DNA from: Rubrivivax sp. | GTDB lineage: Bacteria; Pseudomonadota; Gammaproteobacteria; Burkholderiales; Burkholderiaceae_C | DNA length: 64,000 bases | Direction: 5' to 3' | Assembly: GCA_020248945.1 (NCBI GenBank) | Contig: JADCGQ010000004.1 | Coordinates: 124,001 to 188,000, forward strand | Shown: positions 1-11,815 of the stretch, piece after piece | Position numbering within the stretch: position 1 is the stretch's first letter | Layout of the letters: each line of letters opens with the position of its first letter | Made by a program: the position numbers and the translations under genes | Notes under the pieces: generated by a model | Database searches by the model: none | The model's input: only the letters and a program-made list of their open reading frames with translations | What the model was told of the DNA's origin: nothing

Positions 1-167
1 CCGGCTGGGGCCTCCACGGCCGGTGTCTGCCGCAGGCCCGCCTCGGCGACCACGCGCACCCGCAAGCCGTCGGCCACGCGGCGGCCGCTGGCGTCGTCGA
101 CGAAGGCCATGCCGAAGGCCGGGCGGAACACCGGCCGCTCGAGCACCACGTGTGCGGGCGTGCTCAT
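1..167 (-). CDS. Hypothetical protein in eCIS operon (5' part only)
   Basis: Only the first 55 or so codons are visible; the gene runs off the left edge. The ATG at 167 overlaps the stop of the DUF4255 gene (ATGA), so the two are translationally coupled in one minus-strand operon. The visible residues (start MSTPAHVVLERPVF) contain no domain I recognise. Its place directly after a Pvc16-like gene suggests a structural or accessory part of a contractile injection system. That is inference from position only. Confidence 0.6.
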   Translation of the reverse strand, partial: MSTPAHVVLERPVFRPAFGMAFVDDASGRRVADGLRVRVVAEAGLRQTPAVEAPA

Positions 168-757
168 CGCCGCACCCCGGCCATTGCGAACTCGCGCTCG
201 CGCACCGGCGGGCCTTCGCTGATCAAGACCTCGGAGTCGATCAGCAGCATGCGCGCCGTGTAGCCCATGGCCACCGGCAGCGTCGCCTTGGCCTTGTCCC
301 ACAGCGCCATGAAGTCGGCCAGCGCCAGCGGGTCGGCCAGCAACTCCACCGCCTCGTCGGCGGCAAAGACCTCGGGCTCGGCGAGCTGCCGGTTCAGCTC
401 GCCGCTGGCCAGCACCGGGTGGTCTTCCAGCTCGCGCAGCGCCCAGCCGAGCAGGCGCTGCTGGGTGTCGGCGGCCGTGGCGCTGGGCACCAGCAGGTAG
501 TGCAGATCCAGCGGCAAGGACGGCTTGGTGCGCCGGCCGTCGGGCGTGCGCCGTGGCGGCAGCGCGCGGCGCGGGTTCACCGCCACGCGCCACAGGCACA
601 GCGCAATGCCGTCGGGCAGCGCGGTGGTGCCGGCCAGGCGCTGCGGCTGCACGAGCTCGAAGCTCGCCGAGATCGGGAAGCGATCGCGCGGGAAGCCTTC
701 TTCCAGCACGGCCAGGATGGCCTTGCTGGTGGCGGCGATGGCGTTCCAGGTGGCCAT
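164..757 (-). CDS. DUF4255 / Pvc16-N-like tail cap protein of an eCIS
   Basis: This 197-aa protein starts MATWNAIAATSKAILAVLEE, a pattern typical of the DUF4255 (Pvc16 N-terminal) family. In Photorhabdus virulence cassette-type particles, Pvc16 caps the tail tube. The body has the family-like segments ALCLWRVAVNPRR and LPLDLHYLLVP, followed by a late region (LADFMALWDKAKATLPVAM). There is no signal peptide or membrane segment, as expected for a particle protein assembled in the cytosol. It lies 7 bp downstream of the small gene at 765-995 and overlaps the next gene by ATGA. The family call is from recall of the motif, not from a search. A related phage-tail-like particle is the main alternative. 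Confidence 0.72.
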   Translation of the reverse strand: MATWNAIAATSKAILAVLEEGFPRDRFPISASFELVQPQRLAGTTALPDGIALCLWRVAVNPRRALPPRRTPDGRRTKPSLPLDLHYLLVPSATAADTQQRLLGWALRELEDHPVLASGELNRQLAEPEVFAADEAVELLADPLALADFMALWDKAKATLPVAMGYTARMLLIDSEVLISEGPPVREREFAMAGVRR

Positions 758-764
758 GGTCAGT

Positions 765-995
765 TCAGCCCGGCGCCGTCCAGCGCCAGCGCACGCGGCC
801 GTCGGCGGCCGCTTGCGGGCGCACGCAGCCCTCGTGCTGCAGCTGCTGCAGGGCCGCGATCACGTCGGCCTCGCGCGCAGCAGGCGCCAGCCACCAGCGC
901 GCGATGCCGTCGCTGGTGTCGGCGGCCTGGGGATGCTGCTGCCAATGGCGACGCAAGTCCCGCAACACGATCGCGACAGCGTCGGGGGCGTTCAT
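765..995 (-). CDS. Small winged-helix-like protein at the head of the eCIS operon
   Basis: This 76-aa protein starts MNAPDAVAIVLRDL and contains the segment QAADTSDGIARWWL, then EADVIAALQQLQHEG and a DGRVRWRW strand. The helix-helix-hairpin layout resembles a small winged helix. Small proteins of this kind occur next to DUF4255 genes in contractile injection loci (recalled, not searched). It is the first gene after the sigma-54 promoter at 1061-1074. The ATG at 995 is chosen because it gives a normal N-terminus; a GTG at 1019 would add eight Ala-rich residues. Neither has a clear ribosome binding site. Confidence 0.6.
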   Translation of the reverse strand: MNAPDAVAIVLRDLRRHWQQHPQAADTSDGIARWWLAPAAREADVIAALQQLQHEGCVRPQAAADGRVRWRWTAPG

Positions 996-1060
996 CGCGG
1001 CGGCGGCAGCAGCGGGCACGGAAGGTCGAATGGAATGGGCTCACGGTCTGCCTCATCTGC

Positions 1061-1074
1061 GCAAGCGGCGTGCC
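1061..1074 (-). promoter_or_regulatory. Sigma-54 (RpoN) promoter of the eCIS operon
   Basis: On the minus strand this reads GGCACGCCGCTTGC, with exact GG-N10-GC spacing. It matches the consensus TGGCACG-N4-TTGC except for A in place of the first T. Transcription would start near 1050 and run left into the genes at 995 and 757. A sigma-54 activator gene lies only 230 bp away on the same strand, which supports the call. Confidence 0.75.
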
Positions 1075-1124
1075 TGCGCGCGGCCCACGCCAAGTGCTTG
1101 ATTCCAAAGGGGCGGCGTGGACGA

Positions 1125-1146
1125 CGGTGGACTCTTCCGTCCACCG
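1125..1146. promoter_or_regulatory. Inverted repeat, likely proximal activator site
   Basis: CGGTGGAC and GTCCACCG (8-bp perfect arms) are separated by 6 bp. It lies about 85 bp upstream of the predicted sigma-54 transcription start, where enhancer-binding activators normally bind. It shares the GGTGGAC core with the palindrome at 1186-1206. Confidence 0.5.
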
Positions 1147-1185
1147 CTCGGCTGCGCGGCGCCCTGGGCGGGCGGTGGTGTCGCG

Positions 1186-1206
1186 CTTGTCCACCCGGTG
1201 GACAAG
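1186..1206. promoter_or_regulatory. 21-bp palindrome, likely distal activator site
   Basis: CTTGTCCACC and GGTGGACAAG form 10-bp perfect arms around a single C. It is centred about 146 bp upstream of the predicted sigma-54 start, and a further partial copy (CTTGTCCA) follows at once. It lies between the activator gene's stop (1292) and the promoter, so it could also act as a stem-loop in the activator transcript. Operator is preferred because the GGTGGAC core recurs at 1125-1146. Confidence 0.5.
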
Positions 1207-1291
1207 CTTGTCCATGTGCAGGCGGCCCGCAGGCGCCGCAAACGAAACAGCCGCCCGAAGGCGGCTGCGGCAAGCGAGCGAGCGAGCGACG

Positions 1292-2329
1292 CTATACGGC
1301 GCGGTAGCGGGCCGCGTCGATGTCGTGCTTGCGCAGCAACTCGAAGAACGCACGGCGGTGCTTGCGCGCCAGCCGCGCCGCCTGCGCGATGTTGCCGCCG
1401 GCCTCGGCCAGCGTGCGCTCGATGTAGTGGCGCTCGAAGTCGCGCACGGCGCGGGCCTTGGCCGCGTTGAAGCCTTCGGCCGCCGCCGGCGGCGCAGCGG
1501 CGGCCTGGGCCGGGCCGAGATCGAGGTCGTCTGCCGCCAGTTGCGGGCCGCTGGCCAGCAGGGCCGCCCGGTCGACCGCGTGCTTGAGCTCGCGCACGTT
1601 GCCTGGCCACGACCACGCCATCAGCCGCGCCAGGGCAGCCGGCGAGATCGACTGGATCGCGTGCTGCCCGTCGCGGCGCGACAAGGCCAGGAAGTGCTCG
1701 GCCAGCGCGGGCACGTCGGCCATGCGCTGGCGCAGCGGCGGCAGCATCAGCGTGAGCATGTTCAGCCGGAACAGCAGGTCCTGGCGGAACTGCCCGGCCG
1801 CCGCCAGCGCATCGAGCGGCCGGTTGCTCGCCGCCACCACCCGCACATGGGCCTGGCGCAGCTGGCTCGAGCCCACGGGCCGGTACTGCTGGTCTTGCAG
1901 AAAGCGCAGCAGCTTGGCCTGTGCGGCCAGCGGCAAGGCGTCGATCTCGTCGAGGAACAGCGTGCCGTGTTCGGCCTCGGCCACGAGCCCGCTGCGCGCG
2001 GCATGCGCGTGCGTGTAGGCGCCGCGCACGTGGCCGAAGAGTTCGTCCTCGACCAGCTCACCCGGGATCGCCGCGCAGTTGACGGCCACGAAAGGCCCGC
2101 CCGCGCGCGCCGAGGCGTAATGAAGGGCCTGGGCACAGACCTCCTTGCCGGTGCCGGTTTCGCCGAGGATGAGCACCCCGGCGTCGCAGCGCGCGTAGCG
2201 CGGCAGCCGCGCCAGCGCCGCGACGAAGGCCGCGCTGTGGCCGACGAGCCCGGCACGGCGGGCCACGGCCAGCAGATCGGACGCCAGCGGATCGGCAGGA
2301 GCCTGGACGTTGTCGAGACAGTCGTTCAC
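1292..2329 (-). CDS. Sigma-54-dependent transcriptional activator lacking a receiver domain
   Basis: This 345-aa protein is an AAA+ sigma-54 interaction domain plus a C-terminal Fis-type helix-turn-helix (GGNIAQAARLARKHRRAFFE). Walker A is GETGTGKE near residues 56-63 and Walker B is GTLFLDEID near 122-130. There is no N-terminal receiver or GAF domain, only about 30 residues before the AAA+ core, so activity is probably controlled by expression or a partner. The GTG at 2329 is chosen because AAAGGAG lies 7 nt upstream; the frame stays open further 5' without a better start. The sigma-54 contact loop reads GAYTHA instead of GAFTGA. It is transcribed toward the eCIS genes and is the likely activator of their promoter. 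Confidence 0.88.
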   Translation of the reverse strand: MNDCLDNVQAPADPLASDLLAVARRAGLVGHSAAFVAALARLPRYARCDAGVLILGETGTGKEVCAQALHYASARAGGPFVAVNCAAIPGELVEDELFGHVRGAYTHAHAARSGLVAEAEHGTLFLDEIDALPLAAQAKLLRFLQDQQYRPVGSSQLRQAHVRVVAASNRPLDALAAAGQFRQDLLFRLNMLTLMLPPLRQRMADVPALAEHFLALSRRDGQHAIQSISPAALARLMAWSWPGNVRELKHAVDRAALLASGPQLAADDLDLGPAQAAAAPPAAAEGFNAAKARAVRDFERHYIERTLAEAGGNIAQAARLARKHRRAFFELLRKHDIDAARYRAV

Positions 2330-5511: not shown

Positions 5512-6585
5512 TCAGCGCTCGTCGAAGCTCACGACGACGCGCTCGGTCAGCGGGTGCGCCTGGCAGGTGAGCACGAAGCCGGCGGCGATGTCGGCGGGCT
5601 CCAGCGCGAACTGGCGGTCCATGCGCACGCGGCCTTCGATCAGCTTGGCGCGGCAGGTGGCGCAGACGCCGCTCTTGCACGAAAACGGCAGGTCCAGGCC
5701 GCTGCGCGTGGCCGCGGCCAGCAGGTTGGCATCGGCCGCGGTGTAGTCGATCTCGCGCGTGAGCCCGTCGCGCACGAGGGTGATGCGCGCCGTGGCGGCA
5801 TCTCCCGGCTGCGGCTGTGGCGCGCGGGCGCTGCGTTCAGCAGGCGGCACGCCAAAGCGTTCGACATGGATGCGGGCCTCGGGCACGCCGTGGCTGCGCA
5901 ACGCGGCCTCGACCTCGTCGTTCATGGCGTGCGGGCCGCAGACGAAGGCGGCGTCCACCGAGGCCGCGCCCCCCACGAGGCGCAGGACGGTGCCCAGCCG
6001 CTCGGCATCCACCCGGCCGCTGGCCAGCGGTGCATCGACTTGCTCGCGCGAGAACACCGTGAACAGCGCCAAGCGGGCCAGGTGGCGGCTTTTCAGGTCC
6101 TCGAGTTCCTCCTTGAACATCGTGCTCGCTGCCTGGCGGTTGGCGTACACCAGCGTGGCGCGGGTGTCGGGCGACGCGGCCAGATGCGCCTTCAGGATCG
6201 ACAGCACCGGCGTGATGCCGCTGCCCCCGGCCACGGCCAGCACATGCCGCGGGCGCGCGCCCAGTGCACGGCCGAAGTGGCCCTGCGGCGGCAGCGCCTC
6301 GATCACGTCGCCCGGCTCGAGCTGCGCATGCAGCCAGCTCGAAAACGCCCCGCCTTCGACGCGCCGCACGCCCACGCGCAGCGGCTCGCCGGGCGCGGCG
6401 CAGAGCGAGTAGCTGCGGCGCAGGTCCTGCCCCTGCACCTGCGCGCGCAGCGTGAGGTACTGGCCGGGCTCGAAGCGCCAGCGCTCGGTGTCGCCGTCGA
6501 TCGACTCGAAGCGGATCACGCGCGCCTCGGCGGTGTCGGCCTCGACGGCGGCCACGCGCAAGGGATGGAAGTGCAGGCCCGTCAT
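5512..6585 (-). CDS. paaE: Phenylacetyl-CoA epoxidase reductase subunit PaaE
   Basis: This 357-aa protein passes electrons from NAD(P)H to the PaaAC epoxidase. It has a ferredoxin-reductase FAD domain (RRSYSLCAAPGE near residues 55-66), an NAD domain (GGSGITPVLSILKAHL), and a C-terminal plant-type 2Fe-2S ferredoxin with CKSGVCATC plus a later single Cys (LTCQAHP). The ATG at 6585 overlaps the paaD stop (ATGA). The length matches known PaaE. Confidence 0.95.
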   Translation of the reverse strand: MTGLHFHPLRVAAVEADTAEARVIRFESIDGDTERWRFEPGQYLTLRAQVQGQDLRRSYSLCAAPGEPLRVGVRRVEGGAFSSWLHAQLEPGDVIEALPPQGHFGRALGARPRHVLAVAGGSGITPVLSILKAHLAASPDTRATLVYANRQAASTMFKEELEDLKSRHLARLALFTVFSREQVDAPLASGRVDAERLGTVLRLVGGAASVDAAFVCGPHAMNDEVEAALRSHGVPEARIHVERFGVPPAERSARAPQPQPGDAATARITLVRDGLTREIDYTAADANLLAAATRSGLDLPFSCKSGVCATCRAKLIEGRVRMDRQFALEPADIAAGFVLTCQAHPLTERVVVSFDER

Positions 6586-7097
6586 CACAAGGGCTTGAAG
6601 TGTTCGAAGGGTTCGCGGCAGGCGAGGCAGCGGTAAAGCGCCTTGCAGGCCGTGCTGCCGAAGGCCGACAGGCGCTCGACCTGGGGGCTTTCGCAGCGTG
6701 GGCAGGGCACGCGGTGGGCCATCAGCCGCACGGGGGTGCCTTCGTCGCCGCAACGACCCGGTGGCGCGATGCCGTAGCGGCGCAGCGCCTCGCGGCCGGT
6801 GTCGGTGATCCAGTCGGTGGTCCAGGCCGGGGCGAGCTGGTGCGTCACGCGCACGGGGCCGAGGCCGGCGGCCTCGAGCGCGGCGCGCGTCGACTCGGCG
6901 ATCACCTCGGTGGCCGGACAACCGCTGTAGGTGGGCGTCAGCACGACCTCGGTGCCATCGGCACCCACGTGCACGCCGCGCACCACGCCCAGGTCGACGA
7001 GGCTGAGCACCGGCACCTCGGGGTCCATCACCTCGCGCAGCGCGGCCCAGGCGCGGGCCTCGGCGGCCTCGCGGCTGAGCAGTTCGGCGCCGCACAT
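6585..7097 (-). CDS. paaD: Phenylacetyl-CoA epoxidase assembly factor PaaD
   Basis: This 170-aa protein has an N-terminal MIP18/DUF59-like domain (ALREVMDPEVPVLSLVDLG, then TPTYSGCPATEVI) and a C-terminal zinc-ribbon-like part (CPRCESPQVERLSAFGSTAC, then CLACREPF). PaaD is needed for maturation of the ring-epoxidation complex, probably by iron-sulphur cluster delivery. The start at 7097 overlaps the paaC stop, and the stop overlaps the paaE start. Confidence 0.93.
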   Translation of the reverse strand: MCGAELLSREAAEARAWAALREVMDPEVPVLSLVDLGVVRGVHVGADGTEVVLTPTYSGCPATEVIAESTRAALEAAGLGPVRVTHQLAPAWTTDWITDTGREALRRYGIAPPGRCGDEGTPVRLMAHRVPCPRCESPQVERLSAFGSTACKALYRCLACREPFEHFKPL

Positions 7098-7906
7098 CAC
7101 CACACCCCGCCGGGGTAGCGTCGCGGCAGGTACTGCAGCTCGGCGAGGATGAAGCCCAGGTGCTCGCTGTGGCGGCCGAGTGTGCCGGTGCTGACGAAGG
7201 GCGTGGCCGCTGGCGGCTCCAGCTTCGCCTCGGCCAGAACGGCAGCCACCTCGGCGTGCCACGGCTCGCGCAGCTCGGCGCGCGAGGGGCCCAGGCCCGA
7301 GGCGGCCGCCGTGGCATCCACCTCGTCGGCAACGAAGAGTTCGGCCACATACGGCCAGGCCCGCGCCAGCGCCGCGCGCAGCCGGCTCGCCGACTCGTCG
7401 GTGCCGTCGCCCAGCCGCACCACCCAGCCGGCCGCGTGCTGGTGGTGGTAGCGCACCTCCTTCAGCGACTTGGCGGCGATGGCGGCCAGCGACGCATCCG
7501 ACGAGCCCTGCAGCCGGGTGAAGAGGGCCTTCATCCACGAGGCCACCAACAGGTTGCGCAGCACGGTGTCGGCGAAGTCGCCGCCGGGGCTGTGGGCGCT
7601 GGGCTTGCGCAGGGGCTGCTCGACCAGCGTGAGGTTGAGGAACTGGTGCTCCTCGCGCAGGAAGGCCAGCGCGTCTTCGCCGAAGCCCTGCCCTTCGAGC
7701 GCCGCGGCATGCGTGAGCAGCGCGCGCGCCTGGCCGAGGCTGTCGAGCGCCAGGTTCGACAGCGCGATGTCTTCCTCGAGCACCGGCGCGTGGCCGCACC
7801 ACTCGGCCAGGCGCTGGGCGTGGATGAGGGCGGTGTCGGCGATGCGCAGCACGTAGCGCACCGGCGGCGTGAGGCGCAGTTCGAGGGACGCGGAGACGGT
7901 GGTCAC
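7097..7906 (-). CDS. paaC: Phenylacetyl-CoA epoxidase structural subunit PaaC
   Basis: This 269-aa ferritin-like protein forms the inactive structural partner of PaaA in the epoxidase core. Typical segments are APVLEEDIALSNLALDSLGQ and LREEHQFLNLTLVEQP, and KEVRYHHQHAAGWVVRLGDG in the later helix. The start is GTG at 7906, 10 bp after the paaB stop; no upstream ATG fits. The stop overlaps the paaD start. Confidence 0.95.
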   Translation of the reverse strand: MTTVSASLELRLTPPVRYVLRIADTALIHAQRLAEWCGHAPVLEEDIALSNLALDSLGQARALLTHAAALEGQGFGEDALAFLREEHQFLNLTLVEQPLRKPSAHSPGGDFADTVLRNLLVASWMKALFTRLQGSSDASLAAIAAKSLKEVRYHHQHAAGWVVRLGDGTDESASRLRAALARAWPYVAELFVADEVDATAAASGLGPSRAELREPWHAEVAAVLAEAKLEPPAATPFVSTGTLGRHSEHLGFILAELQYLPRRYPGGVW

Positions 7907-7916
7907 GGCAGTGGCC

Positions 7917-8216
7917 TCACAGGTGGTTCACCGACTCGGGCAGCTCGTAGAACGTGGGGTGGCGGTAGACCTTGTCTTCGGCCGGATCGAAGAGCATGTC
8001 CTTGTCGCCGGGGTCGCTGGCGGTGATGTGGGCGCTGGGCACCACCCACACGCTGCTGCCCTCCTGGCGCCGCGTGTAGACCTCGCGCGCCAGCTGCACC
8101 GCCATGGCCGCATCGGGCGCGTGCAGGCTGCCGCAGTGCTTGTGTTCGAGGCCGGCCTTGGGGCGCACGAACACCTCCCAGAGCGGCCACTCCGTGCCAG
8201 CGGGGCCCGCGCTCAT
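7917..8216 (-). CDS. paaB: Phenylacetyl-CoA epoxidase subunit PaaB
   Basis: This 99-aa protein contains the PaaB pattern [20 protein letters not shown] and ends with [16 protein letters not shown], both typical of the family. PaaB is a small bridging subunit of the PaaABC complex. The ATG at 8216 overlaps the paaA stop (ATGA). Confidence 0.95.
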
Positions 8217-9214
8217 GCGGCGGCCTCCGCGGTGGCGCGCTTGGCGGCGTGCGCCAGCGCTGCCTCGCGCACCCAGGCGCCTTCGTCCCAGGCCCGCACG
8301 CGGGCCGACAGCCGCTCGGTGTTGCAGGGCCCATGGCCGCCGACGACGCGCCAGAACTCGCTCCAGTCGATGGCGCCGAAGTCGTGGTGGCCGCGCTCGG
8401 CGTTCCACTTCATTTGCGCGTCGGGCAGGCTCACCCCCAGCACCGCGGCCTGCTCCACGCAGGCGTCGACGAACTTCTGCCGCAGCTCGTCGTTGCTGAT
8501 GCGCTTGATGCCCCAGCGCGCGCTCTGCGCACCGTGCACGCTTTCGCCATCGGGCGGGCCGAACATCATCAGGCTCGGCCACCACCAGCGGTTCACCGCG
8601 TCCTGCACCATCGCGCGCTGTGCGTCGGTGCCCTGCTTCATCATCACATGCAGGCTGTCGAAGCCCTGGCGCTGGTGGAAACTCTCCTCGCGGCAGATGC
8701 GCACCATGGCGCGGGCATAGGGCGCGTAGCTGCAGCGCGTGAGCGGCACCTGGTTCATGATGGCCGCGCCGTCGACCAACCAGCCGATCACGCCGATGTC
8801 GGCCCAGGAGAGCGTGGGGTAGTTGAAGATGCTGCTGTACTTGGCCTTGCCGCTGTGCAGCGCGTCGAGCAGCTGGTCGCGGCTGGTGCCGAGCGTTTCG
8901 GCCGCGGCGTAGAGGTAGAGACCGTGGCCGCCTTCGTCCTGGATCTTGGCCAGCAGGATCGCCTTGCGCTTGAGCGTGGGCGCGCGCGTGACCCAGTTGC
9001 CTTCGGGCAGCATGCCCACGATCTCGGAGTGCGCGTGCTGGCTGATCTGCCGCAAGAGCGTCTTGCGGTAGTGCTCGGGCATCCAGTCCTTGGCCTCGAT
9101 GAAGCCGCCATCGTCGATGCGGGCCTCGAATCGCCGTTCGAGCTCGGCTTCTTCCAGGCTGCGCAAGGCGCGGCGCTCTTCCTTCGGGGCCGTGTCCATC
9201 GCTTGCGTGTACAT
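8213..9214 (-). CDS. paaA: Phenylacetyl-CoA epoxidase catalytic subunit PaaA
   Basis: This 333-aa diiron oxygenase makes the 1,2-epoxide of the aromatic ring of phenylacetyl-CoA. The diiron helices carry the expected Glu/His residues ([18 protein letters not shown] and [12 protein letters not shown]). [20 protein letters not shown] is a typical early segment. The ATG at 9214 is chosen; a second Met at residue 6 could also serve. It is 11 bp downstream of paaK. Confidence 0.97.
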
Positions 9215-9225
9215 CGCGGTGCTTC

Positions 9226-10533
9226 CTAACGTGAGCGTTTGTCGACCACGCGCCCGGCCTTGCCCACCAGCGTGCGTTCGATGGTATCGGGCAGACCCAC
9301 GTCGACCGTGGTGGACACGCCGATGAGCGTCTTGATGCGCTGCTGCAGCTCGGCCGCGATCGGGCCGGCCGCGGCGTGCCGGTGCTCGGGTGCCAACTCG
9401 CAGCGCACCGTCACTTCATCGAGCAGCGCCTCGCGTGTGACGACCAGCTGGTACTGCCCCGAAAGCTGCCCGTGCTGCAGCACCAGCTCCTCGATCTGCG
9501 TCGGGAACAGGTTGACGCCGCGGATGATGAGCATGTCGTCGCTGCGGCCGACGATCTTGCCCATGCGCCGCATGCTGCGCGCGGTGGGCGGCAACAGGCG
9601 CGTGAGGTCGCGCGTGCGGTAGCGGATGACGGGCAGCGCCTCCTTGGTGAGCGTGGTGAACACGAGCTCGCCTTCGCTGCCTTCGGGCAATACCTCGCCC
9701 GTCTCGGGATCGATGATCTCCGGGTAGAAGTGGTCTTCCCAGATCACCGGGCCGTCCTTCGCTTCGATGCATTCGTTGGCCACGCCCGGGCCCATCACTT
9801 CGCTGAGGCCGTAGATGTCGACGGCGTCGAGGGCTGCCGAATGCTCGATGTCGCGGCGCATCGCCTCGGTCCAGGGCTCGGCGCCGAAGATGCCGACGCT
9901 CACGCTCATCTGGCGCGGGTCTTTGCCTTGGCGGCGGAACTCCTCGCAGATCACCTGCATGTAGCTCGGCGTGACCATGATGATGTCGGGCCGGAAGTCC
10001 TCGATCAGCGCCACCTGCTTCTCGGTCTGGCCGCCGCTCATCGGGATGACGGTGCAGCCCAGCCGCTCGGCGCCGTAGTGCGCGCCCAGGCCGCCGGTGA
10101 ACAAGCCGTAGCCGTAGGCGATGTGCACGATGTCGCCCGGCCGGCCGCCACTGGCGCGGATGCTGCGCGCCATCAGGTGGGCCCAGGTGTCGATGTCGGC
10201 CTGCGTGTAACCCACCACCGTGGGCTTGCCGGTGGTGCCGCTGCTGGCGTGGATGCGCACCACACGCTCGCGCGGCACGGCGAACAGGCCGAAGGGGTAG
10301 TTGGCGCGCAGGTCGGCCTTGGCCGTGAACGGGAACTTCGCCAGGTCGGCCAGCGTGCGGCAGTCCGACGGGTGCACGCCCTTCGCATCGAAGGCCTGGC
10401 GGTAGTGCGGCACGTGCTCGTAGGCGCGTTGCAGCGTGGCCTGCAGGCGCTGCAACTGCAGGGCTTGCAGCTCGTCGCGGCTGGCGGTTTCGATCGCTTC
10501 CAGTTCGCCGGGTTTCGGGGCCTTCACGGGCAT
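9226..10533 (-). CDS. paaK: Phenylacetate-CoA ligase
   Basis: This 435-aa AMP-forming ligase makes phenylacetyl-CoA, the first step of the pathway. The phosphate-binding loop is [14 protein letters not shown] near residues 93-106. The segment [20 protein letters not shown] and the late [19 protein letters not shown] are hallmarks of PaaK. The start ATG at 10533 has GGAG 7 nt upstream. The gene sits between paaI and paaA. Confidence 0.96.
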
Positions 10534-10571
10534 CTCGGGTCTCCTTGGGTCTCTGGGCTCGCGGCCGGTGT

Positions 10572-11027
10572 TCAGCTGCCGCGCTGCTTGCCGATCGGCA
10601 AGCCTTCGACCACCGGACGCCCCTTCATCGTGTAGCTGCGCCCGCGGAAGGCCGCCACCCGCTCGCCACGTTGGTTGCTCACGGCAATGTCGTACACGCC
10701 GGTGCGGCCGCTCTTGGCCACCTCGGTGGCCACTGCGGTGAGCACGTCACCTTTGCGCGCCGCGGCGATGAGGTTCATGTCGAAGCCCGAGGCCACCGTC
10801 ACCTCGTTGTAGGCGTTGCAGGCAAAGGCAAAGGCGCTGTCGGCCAGGGTGGTGACGAAGCCGCCGTGGCAGATGTCGTGGCCGTTGAGCATGTCTTCGC
10901 GCACCGCCATCGTCAGCGTGGCGCTGCCGGGGCCGACGGCGACGATCTGCATGCCGAGACCGCGGCTGGCACGGTCGTTTTCCCACATCGCGTCGCGGCA
11001 GGCTTCGGCCAGGGCTTGGGCGTCCAT
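10572..11027 (-). CDS. paaI: Phenylacetic acid degradation thioesterase PaaI
   Basis: This 151-aa hotdog-fold acyl-CoA thioesterase probably hydrolyses dead-end aromatic CoA intermediates. The segment LNGHDICHGGFVTTLADSAF is the family active-site region, including the Asn/Asp-bearing loop and HGG. The ATG at 11027 lies 2 bp after the paaG stop. Confidence 0.93.
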   Translation of the reverse strand: MDAQALAEACRDAMWENDRASRGLGMQIVAVGPGSATLTMAVREDMLNGHDICHGGFVTTLADSAFAFACNAYNEVTVASGFDMNLIAAARKGDVLTAVATEVAKSGRTGVYDIAVSNQRGERVAAFRGRSYTMKGRPVVEGLPIGKQRGS

Positions 11028-11029
11028 GG

Positions 11030-11815
11030 TCAGCGGTCCTTGAACTGCGGCGGGCGCTTGGCGAAGAAGGCCGCCACGCCTTCGCTGAAGTCGTGCGCGC
11101 GGCCGAGCTCGCCCTGGGCCTGCGCCTCCCACGACAAGGCCTCGGCCGGGTCGGCCGGGGCCGAGGTGTCGACGAGCCGGCGCGTTTCGGCCAACGCACG
11201 CGAGGGCATCTGCGCCAGCTTGGCCGCCAGCGCCTGCACGGCGGCGGCAAAGGCGGCGTCTTCCACGCACTGCCAGATCAGGCCCATGCGCTCGGCGGTC
11301 TCGGCGGGCAGCTTGTCGCCCGTCATCGCCAGGCCCAGGGCGCGCGCGCGGCCCACGAGGCGCGGCAGCAGCCAGGTACCGCCGCAATCGGGCACCAGAC
11401 CGATCTTGCTGAAGGCCTGGATGAAGCTGGCGCTGCGCGTGGCCACGACGATGTCGCAGCACAGCGCCAGGTTGGCGCCCGCGCCCGCGGCCACGCCGTT
11501 GACGGCCGCCAGCACCGGCACCGGCATCGAGCGGATGCGCAAGGCCAGCGGCTTGTAGAAGCGCTCGACCACCGCGCCCACGTCGACACCTTCTCCCTGC
11601 ATCGCCGGGTCGGCCAGATCCTGCCCGGCGCAGAAGCCGCGGCCGGCGCCGGTGATCACCACCACGCGCACGGCGGGGTCGGCGGCCGCGGCGTCGAGCG
11701 CGGGCCGCAGCAGGCCATGCATCTCGGCCGTGAAGGCGTTCAGCGCAGCCGGCCGGTTGAGCGTGAGGGTGCACACCGGGCCTTCGTGCGCCACCAGCAG
11801 TGGGGGTTCGGACAT
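11030..11815 (-). CDS. paaG: 2-(1,2-epoxy-1,2-dihydrophenyl)acetyl-CoA isomerase PaaG
   Basis: This 261-aa crotonase-family protein converts the ring epoxide to the oxepin form. The oxyanion-hole segments are GAGRGFCAGQDLAD and AAVNGVAAGAGANLALCCD, and FSKIGLVPDCGGTWLLPRLV carries the family acidic residue. It is the first gene of the paa operon, 37 bp downstream of the palindromic operator at 11852-11867. Confidence 0.95.
   Translation of the reverse strand: MSEPPLLVAHEGPVCTLTLNRPAALNAFTAEMHGLLRPALDAAAADPAVRVVVITGAGRGFCAGQDLADPAMQGEGVDVGAVVERFYKPLALRIRSMPVPVLAAVNGVAAGAGANLALCCDIVVATRSASFIQAFSKIGLVPDCGGTWLLPRLVGRARALGLAMTGDKLPAETAERMGLIWQCVEDAAFAAAVQALAAKLAQMPSRALAETRRLVDTSAPADPAEALSWEAQAQGELGRAHDFSEGVAAFFAKRPPQFKDR

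Follow-up and report, generated by a model that had tools for sequence, protein, structure and literature searches.

A putative self-contained sigma-54 control circuit at an extracellular contractile injection system operon of Rubrivivax sp.

Organisation of the locus

In this work, we analysed the control region of an extracellular contractile injection system (eCIS) operon of Rubrivivax sp., located at the left edge of a 64,000-nucleotide stretch of DNA (contig JADCGQ010000004.1, positions 124001-188000; hereafter the window) and read on its minus strand. Along that strand lie, in order, a gene for a sigma-54 activator of the bacterial enhancer-binding protein (bEBP) family, a terminator-like hairpin, a distal and a proximal predicted enhancer dyad, a consensus for integration host factor (IHF), a -24/-12 element, a gene for a small winged-helix protein, Pvc16 and a further gene (Table 1). 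From these parts and their recurrence elsewhere, we consider it very probable that the operon has a self-contained sigma-54 control circuit.

An earlier note on this DNA had described a DUF4255/Pvc16-like operon followed by a receiver-less sigma-54 activator. Pvc16 is there and the activator carries no receiver, with two amendments: the first gene of the operon encodes the winged-helix protein, and the activator gene precedes the operon in the order of transcription. The sheath and tube genes that the note suggested looking for were both found beyond the left edge of the window, running in the same direction (contig ~96-123.4 kb), together with a second sheath-like and a second tube gene, CIS_tube, hub, gp25, baseplate J, Tail_P2_I, a collagen-repeat protein, an AAA+ protein, an eCIS_core protein and glycosyltransferases. 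Pfam matches covered the structural families PF04984/PF17482, PF06841 (two), PF19266, PF05954, PF04965, PF04865 and PF09684, as well as the further hallmarks Pvc16/DUF4255 (PF14065), AAA+ ATPase (PF00004) and eCIS_core (PF13699). By its gene content this cluster is an eCIS. The genome (91.9 % complete) holds one RpoN match and three matches to the HU/IHF family.

Table 1. Features of the eCIS control region in window coordinates
Feature	Position	Strand	Basis
Sigma-54 activator (bEBP) gene, 345 amino acids, GTG start with Shine-Dalgarno sequence	1292-2329	-	Pfam, start codon, reading of loop and helix
Terminator-like hairpin CAGCCGCC-TTCG-GGCGGCTG then TTTCGTTT, between activator and operon	1240-1267	-	Inverted repeat and direct reading
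Distal enhancer dyad GGTGGACAAGCTTGTCCATG (predicted)	1197-1216	+	Comparative; overlaps the previously noted palindrome 1186-1206
Proximal enhancer dyad GGTGGACTCTTCCGTCCACC (predicted)	1126-1145	+	Sequence, inverted repeat, comparison
IHF consensus, exact, AATCAAGCACTTG (consensus WATCAANNNNTTR)	1091-1103	-	Motif scan
Sigma-54 -24/-12 element AGGCACGCCGCTTGCG, 10/12	1060-1075	-	Consensus score; similar place in relatives
Winged-helix gene ('small'), 76 amino acids, first of operon	765-995	-	Alignment, AlphaFold2, fold matches, co-occurrence
Pvc16/DUF4255 eCIS gene	164-757	-	PF14065, E 9.7e-27
Start of next operon gene (hypothetical), off left edge	1-167	-	Sheath, tube and baseplate genes follow

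Sets of loci

The window was compared with a same-family set of 16 eCIS loci and with a tube-protein set consisting of the best 80 of 382 named loci (loci are designated by L numbers, genomes by G numbers). Both sets were merged, and 62 loci remained for counting once three kinds of rows had been removed: eight loci with less than 1.7 kb of upstream sequence, four same-family loci that duplicate genome_contigs records (L038-L041), and those genome_contigs loci (23 of 80) in which the Pvc16 profile gave no hit.

Sigma-54 promoters and neighbouring activators

The GG-N10-GC promoter noted earlier is present on the minus strand, with GG at 1074-1073 and GC at 1062-1061 of AGGCACGCCGCTTGCG. It matches 10 of the 12 positions of the sigma-54 consensus used for scoring (TGGCACG-N4-TTGCW) and, over the 544 nt that separate the activator from Pvc16, is the sole GG/GC-anchored site with a score of 8/12 or more; from its position, transcription is predicted to start at ~1049. 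Such a match is weak evidence by itself, but not across loci. In the same-family set, the activator stood beside Pvc16 in 12 of 16 loci, and these 12 as well as L051 carried a site of 9-12 out of 12 located 320-430 nt before Pvc16; the site was not convincing by score in L045, L046 and L048.

In the 62-locus count, an activator lay within 2.5 kb of Pvc16 in 35 loci. A site of at least 10/12 preceded Pvc16 in 31 of these, versus two of the 27 loci without a neighbouring activator, and with a threshold of 9/12 the figures were 35/35 versus 5/27. The two activator-less loci with a site of at least 10/12 were L051, whose activator is elsewhere in the genome, and L116, for which we have no explanation. 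The picture was the same before deduplication (26 loci with and 28 without activator). Carriers included Leptothrix, Piscinibacter, Aquabacterium, Ramlibacter, Variovorax, Accumulibacter, Lysobacter, Solimonas, Corallococcus, Citreicoccus, Archangium, two Nitrospirota and one Kryptoniota. No neighbouring activator was found in the assessable Sphingomonadales, Caulobacter, Acidobacteria-type and Chloroflexota loci, nor in L055 and L060 of the Burkholderiales.

As a held-out set, 369 genomes of the class were searched with the winged-helix protein; 13 genomes matched, of which 11 were new, the other two being the window's own and G450. A GG-N10-GC site scoring at least 9 preceded the winged-helix gene by 51-126 nt in 11/11, and one of at least 10/12 in 10/11, the nearest control being the 2/27 activator-less loci rather than shuffles. 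The fetched stretch held an activator in seven of the 11 (two on the other strand), all with a GAxTDA loop and none with an RRAxxEL recognition helix. Three of the 11 stretches were poorer in eCIS genes by profiles: L245 and L247 showed no other eCIS gene, and L244 the activator only.

Enhancer dyads and the activator recognition helix

Two palindromes had been noted upstream of the promoter and both exist: GGTGGACTCTTCCGTCCACC, centred at ~-86, and CTTGTCCACCCGGTGGACAAG (1186-1206), centred at ~-147. The core conserved in other loci being GGAY-N6-RTCC, the second is better read, shifted by ~11 bp, as GGTGGACAAGCTTGTCCATG (~-157), which gives the window two copies of GGTGGAC-N6-GTCCAYS. Since single-locus shuffle tests were mostly non-significant, palindromes of single loci were not used as evidence and the case for the dyads is comparative.

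The recognition helix of the window's activator, in a Fis-type helix-turn-helix, reads KHRRAFFEL. Within 240 nt before the promoter, an exact GGAY-N6-RTCC was found in 11 of 12 loci with an RRAxxEL activator versus none of 25 others (among the latter, L097 stops before the recognition helix is complete), i.e. 18 copies where 0.16 were expected. Loci of the RRAxxEL type come from beta- and gamma-type Pseudomonadota, Myxococcota and Nitrospirota. The pattern was chosen after viewing the window, L047, L050, L051, L076, L084 and pieces of L087 and L127, which are not independent tests; the independent ones, L069, L082, L083, L100, L119 and later L048, were all exact. L127 has only one-mismatch copies. 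The absence of the dyad from all 11 held-out stretches accords with the lack of an RRAxxEL helix in their seven activators.

Two loci without an adjacent activator also carried dyads: two exact copies in L048, and one exact and one single-mismatch copy in L051. Both genomes hold an RRAFFEL-helix activator elsewhere, 61 % and 63 % identical to that of the window, the next matches by score being at 45 % and 47 %. In L051 the dyad was noticed first and the activator located after, and in L048 the reverse. Across loci, the dyad sequence thus follows the recognition helix of the activator. The promoter and dyads recur when upstream regions of other loci are compared, along the lines proposed in the earlier note, and the dyads are kept where the helix is kept. 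In L051 itself, genes of lower GC content at third codon positions (1-2158) stand where the activator would be expected, upstream of an intact sigma-54 promoter. The activator gene sits on a different contig, as though an insertion of DNA had displaced it.

Within the window's genome, GTGGAY-N6-RTCCAY occurs at five places and the sole close pair is that at this promoter. Single copies mean nothing, since the backward-pattern control has more matches (12 strand hits versus 7); the pairing suggests a single target operon in the genome, as predicted from motif occurrence.

A de novo enumeration of exact palindromic half-sites returned GGAC-N6-GTCC in four of 12 loci, a number that shuffles also reach, which we ascribe to Y/R variation; the enumeration is incomplete for the last class. 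Another palindrome accompanies another helix, i.e. TGTCACATCGCGATGTGACA in L052/L053. GGCG-N4-CGCC was tentatively associated with the KERSRF group, where 10 of 13 loci have it (20 shuffles gave 6 at most) and where it is likely a second enhancer code (e.g. L056, L059, L062, L065 and L131).

IHF site

The exact 13-nt IHF consensus between the enhancers and the -24 element is an addition to the earlier note. Among 41 promoters scanned, which include near relatives, six had an exact match and 15 a match with at most one mismatch, for 0.01 and 0.32 expected from shuffles. Among these 15, the distance from the start of the match to the -24 element was 28-30 nt in 11 promoters, 41 nt in three and 35 nt in one. 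The predicted site gives the window promoter the layout of a putatively IHF-assisted sigma-54 promoter.

The winged-helix first gene

In the genome_contigs set, the winged-helix gene was detected in 22 of 26 activator-linked loci versus 0/23 others, the exceptions being three Myxococcota and Solimonas. The AlphaFold2 model is a confident winged helix (H-E-H-H-E-E; pLDDT, i.e. predicted local distance difference test, 91.4). Foldseek matches in the PDB include MarR/LmrR-like and Z-alpha domains, at the fold level only and with no E below 1e-3, and no Pfam family matched this protein.

Judging from the model, such a protein is a plausible DNA binder, and the palindromes could be operators of another factor of this kind, the activator acting elsewhere or without them. 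We regard this as very unlikely: the dyad follows the recognition helix of the activator (11/12 versus 0/25), and the Myxococcota loci L076, L084 and L100 have dyads while the winged-helix gene is absent by profile. The winged-helix protein would nevertheless be the best candidate for feedback on, or partnership with, the activator, because it is the first product of the promoter and follows the activator in evolution.

Activator architecture, contact loop and phylogeny

The window's activator matched Sigma54_activat (PF00158, E 3.9e-60), the lid PF25601 (E 6e-21) and HTH_8 (PF02954, E 1.1e-6); N-terminal to the AAA+ domain, Pfam gave no match. Relatives such as L047, L050, L082 and L119 have an N-terminal region of 150-200 amino acids in which a receiver-like pattern without the phospho-accepting aspartate was recognised by eye; Pfam found no receiver in the L047, L050 and L038 activators. 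This region is missing in the window and in three Myxococcota activators. Having no receiver, the window's activator is presumably not switched by phosphorylation.

The protein was assigned to the bEBP family by homology only, and would activate sigma-54 through a contact loop that reads GAYTHA, not the exact GAFTGA hexamer. Of 36 eCIS activators, 29 have another residue in place of the second glycine of GAFTGA (Asp 21, His 3, Thr 2, Asn 1, Ser 1, Ala 1), versus one of 37 non-eCIS activators of four genomes. These 37 are the non-eCIS matches with a retrieved locus; six further ones without a locus and four weak own-genome matches (L033-L036) were excluded. The loop variant is not confined to eCIS: the single exception among the 37, in a flagellar-looking locus (L201 6851-8368, G133), has GAFTDA. 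In NorR, Asp or Asn at this glycine was described as fully constitutive, Gln, Ser, Cys and Met as partly constitutive, and the remaining substitutions as non-functional (PMC2941729). By analogy, eCIS activators may be built to be on whenever present, or else the His/Thr/Ala forms, among which the window's GAYTHA falls, may be compensated by neighbouring changes, e.g. Phe to Tyr.

Phylogenetic analysis placed 33 of the 36 eCIS activators, from four phyla, in one clade (support 100/97). Those of L052, L053 and L073 fell outside it when the tree was left unconstrained (100/99); the approximately unbiased test did not reject one origin for all 36 (p-AU 0.17). The latter three belong to another activator group beside eCIS, with canonical GAFTGA or GSFTGA and the helix WSRMTLY, and L052 and L053 have dyads of their own (TGTCACA..TGTGACA) ~84 and ~144 nt before the -24 element. 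Sigma-54 control may have been captured here a second time, independently.

Proposed circuit and points weighed

We propose that the activator is made from its own promoter, probably sigma-70-dependent, and that its dimers would bind the two GGTGGAC-N6-GTCCAYS dyads ~86 and ~157 bp upstream of the start. The DNA between dyads and promoter would be bent by IHF, and the AAA+ ring of the activator would open the complex that RNA polymerase and sigma-54 form at the -24/-12 element. Transcription would then cover, as one unit, the winged-helix gene, Pvc16 and the structural and cargo genes. Control of the activator would probably be exerted through its own amount or through a partner, for which the winged-helix protein is the best candidate. 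The compact, self-contained circuit suggested earlier is thus supported, since the eCIS genes, RpoN, the same-strand activator, the dyads and the -24/-12 element are all present and co-occur in other loci.

Several points weigh against this proposal. The window promoter is mismatched at both ends of the consensus, that of L048 reaches only 8/12, at a similar place, and the shuffle test of the dyad pair in the window alone was not significant (p ~0.35). Shuffles of some other loci moreover often reach 9/12, and 10/12 in 2-8 %, and one may ask whether a 10/12 match and palindromes arose by accident in a GC-rich region. The comparative counts make this hardly conceivable and, in our opinion, refute it: the site recurs at a similar place and with its partners in 31/35 activator-linked loci and in 10/11 held-out genomes. 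Loci are related, however, and the counts are not independent events, so that p-values are too small.

A phylum-wide sample, intended as a further held-out test, also counts here. None of its 18 further Pvc16 loci had an adjacent activator (L197 is the same record as L109), and it served as a negative set; the circuit is therefore that of one eCIS lineage and not a general eCIS rule. One locus of this sample, L191, combines the winged-helix gene with a site of 11/12, and a 52 % identical activator of another helix lies elsewhere in the genome.

The main weak point of the functional claim is the GAYTHA loop, which puts at the second glycine a His, belonging to the class non-functional in NorR (PMC2941729); single changes in the GAFTGA motif are described as mostly lowering or abolishing activity (PMC3162934). 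The activator might no longer work with sigma-54 and act through sigma-70 or as a repressor, the -24/-12 element being a relic, as the sigma-70-dependent homologues TyrR and HupR with altered loops would illustrate (PMC3162934) and as the frequency of the substitution among eCIS activators would allow. We consider this unlikely. The element is kept in loci with GAFTDA, GAYTHA, GAYTTA or GAYTNA loops, and selection would not keep an unused element; Asp and Asn are active at that residue in NorR (PMC2941729), and the relative's activator in the flagellar-looking locus likewise has GAFTDA.

With the sigma-54 circuit retained, a broader reading can be put forward tentatively, and we hold it to be possible rather than probable. 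It would comprise an old, dedicated clade of eCIS activators that lost phospho-signalling (the receiver degenerate or gone), had its loop glycine mostly substituted and has a ring that is on whenever made, the off-switch being the winged-helix protein, the first product, acting back on the activator or promoter. If true, such an arrangement would represent a sigma-54 feedback circuit of a new type that accompanies a single eCIS lineage in several phyla.

Neighbouring genes and high-identity tube genes

The eCIS_core protein (contig 96059-99679) shows a weak pre-toxin TG match, below Pfam's cut-off, and glycosyltransferase genes come after its gene (contig 93183-96107). Right of the eCIS switch, window positions 5512-11815 hold a phenylacetate-degradation-like gene cluster (translations judged by eye). 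Tube genes 76-89 % identical to that of the window were found in L058, L063, L067, L068, L071 and L133, metagenome-assembled genomes labelled Bacteroidetes, Chloroflexi-type or Klebsiella; they reflect either recent transfer or mis-binned contigs.

Comparison with known systems

When and how eCIS are made is little known, and the circuit would give a concrete handle on how the particle is switched on. As a conserved circuit whose activator, enhancer code, IHF site and promoter are all defined, it offers named genes to delete and a reporter promoter for finding the inducing signal. The pairing of helix and dyad ties a locus to its activator even when the two are apart (L048, L051), and the frequent loss of the second glycine of GAFTGA provides a natural test of how the loop works.

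The activators PspF and HrpR/HrpS, which are under the control of PspA or HrpV, lack an N-terminal regulatory domain. The window's activator resembles them in this respect and differs by its link to an eCIS. Substitution of the second glycine, as in most eCIS activators, recalls the NorR escape variants G266D/G266N; these, however, are laboratory mutants, and the His, Thr or Ala of six eCIS activators fall in the NorR non-functional class (PMC2941729).

Regulators beside eCIS have been described in a large survey (Geller et al. 2021, PMC8213781), i.e. GerE/LuxR, BTAD and RfaH; GerE adjoins 25.8 % of loci and is presented there as the first regulator conserved with eCIS. The present circuit likewise has its regulator gene adjoining the eCIS operon, but the regulator family and mechanism are different. 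The word 'sigma' does not occur in the main text of that study, nor 'sigma' or 'rpoN' in two reviews. PMC10599522 contains both a sigma-54 and an eCIS term, the latter in its reference list. By title and beginning of abstract, we found no paper on an eCIS under sigma-54, in agreement with the earlier remark that RpoN control of eCIS is not well described; most subscription papers lie outside this search and an earlier mention is possible.

A close parallel is the type VI secretion system (T6SS), whose activator VasH has an N-terminal sensing domain. Sigma-54 control of T6SS through VasH-type activators is established (Bernard et al. 2011), and that of T6SS2 of Vibrio fluvialis involves sigma-54, VasH and IHF (PMC5963220). 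Both cases thus associate the operon of a contractile injector with sigma-54 and a dedicated activator, and in one T6SS also with IHF. The circuit proposed here differs in that it concerns an eCIS, its activator has no N-terminal sensing domain and an altered GAFTGA loop, and its operon begins with a winged-helix gene.

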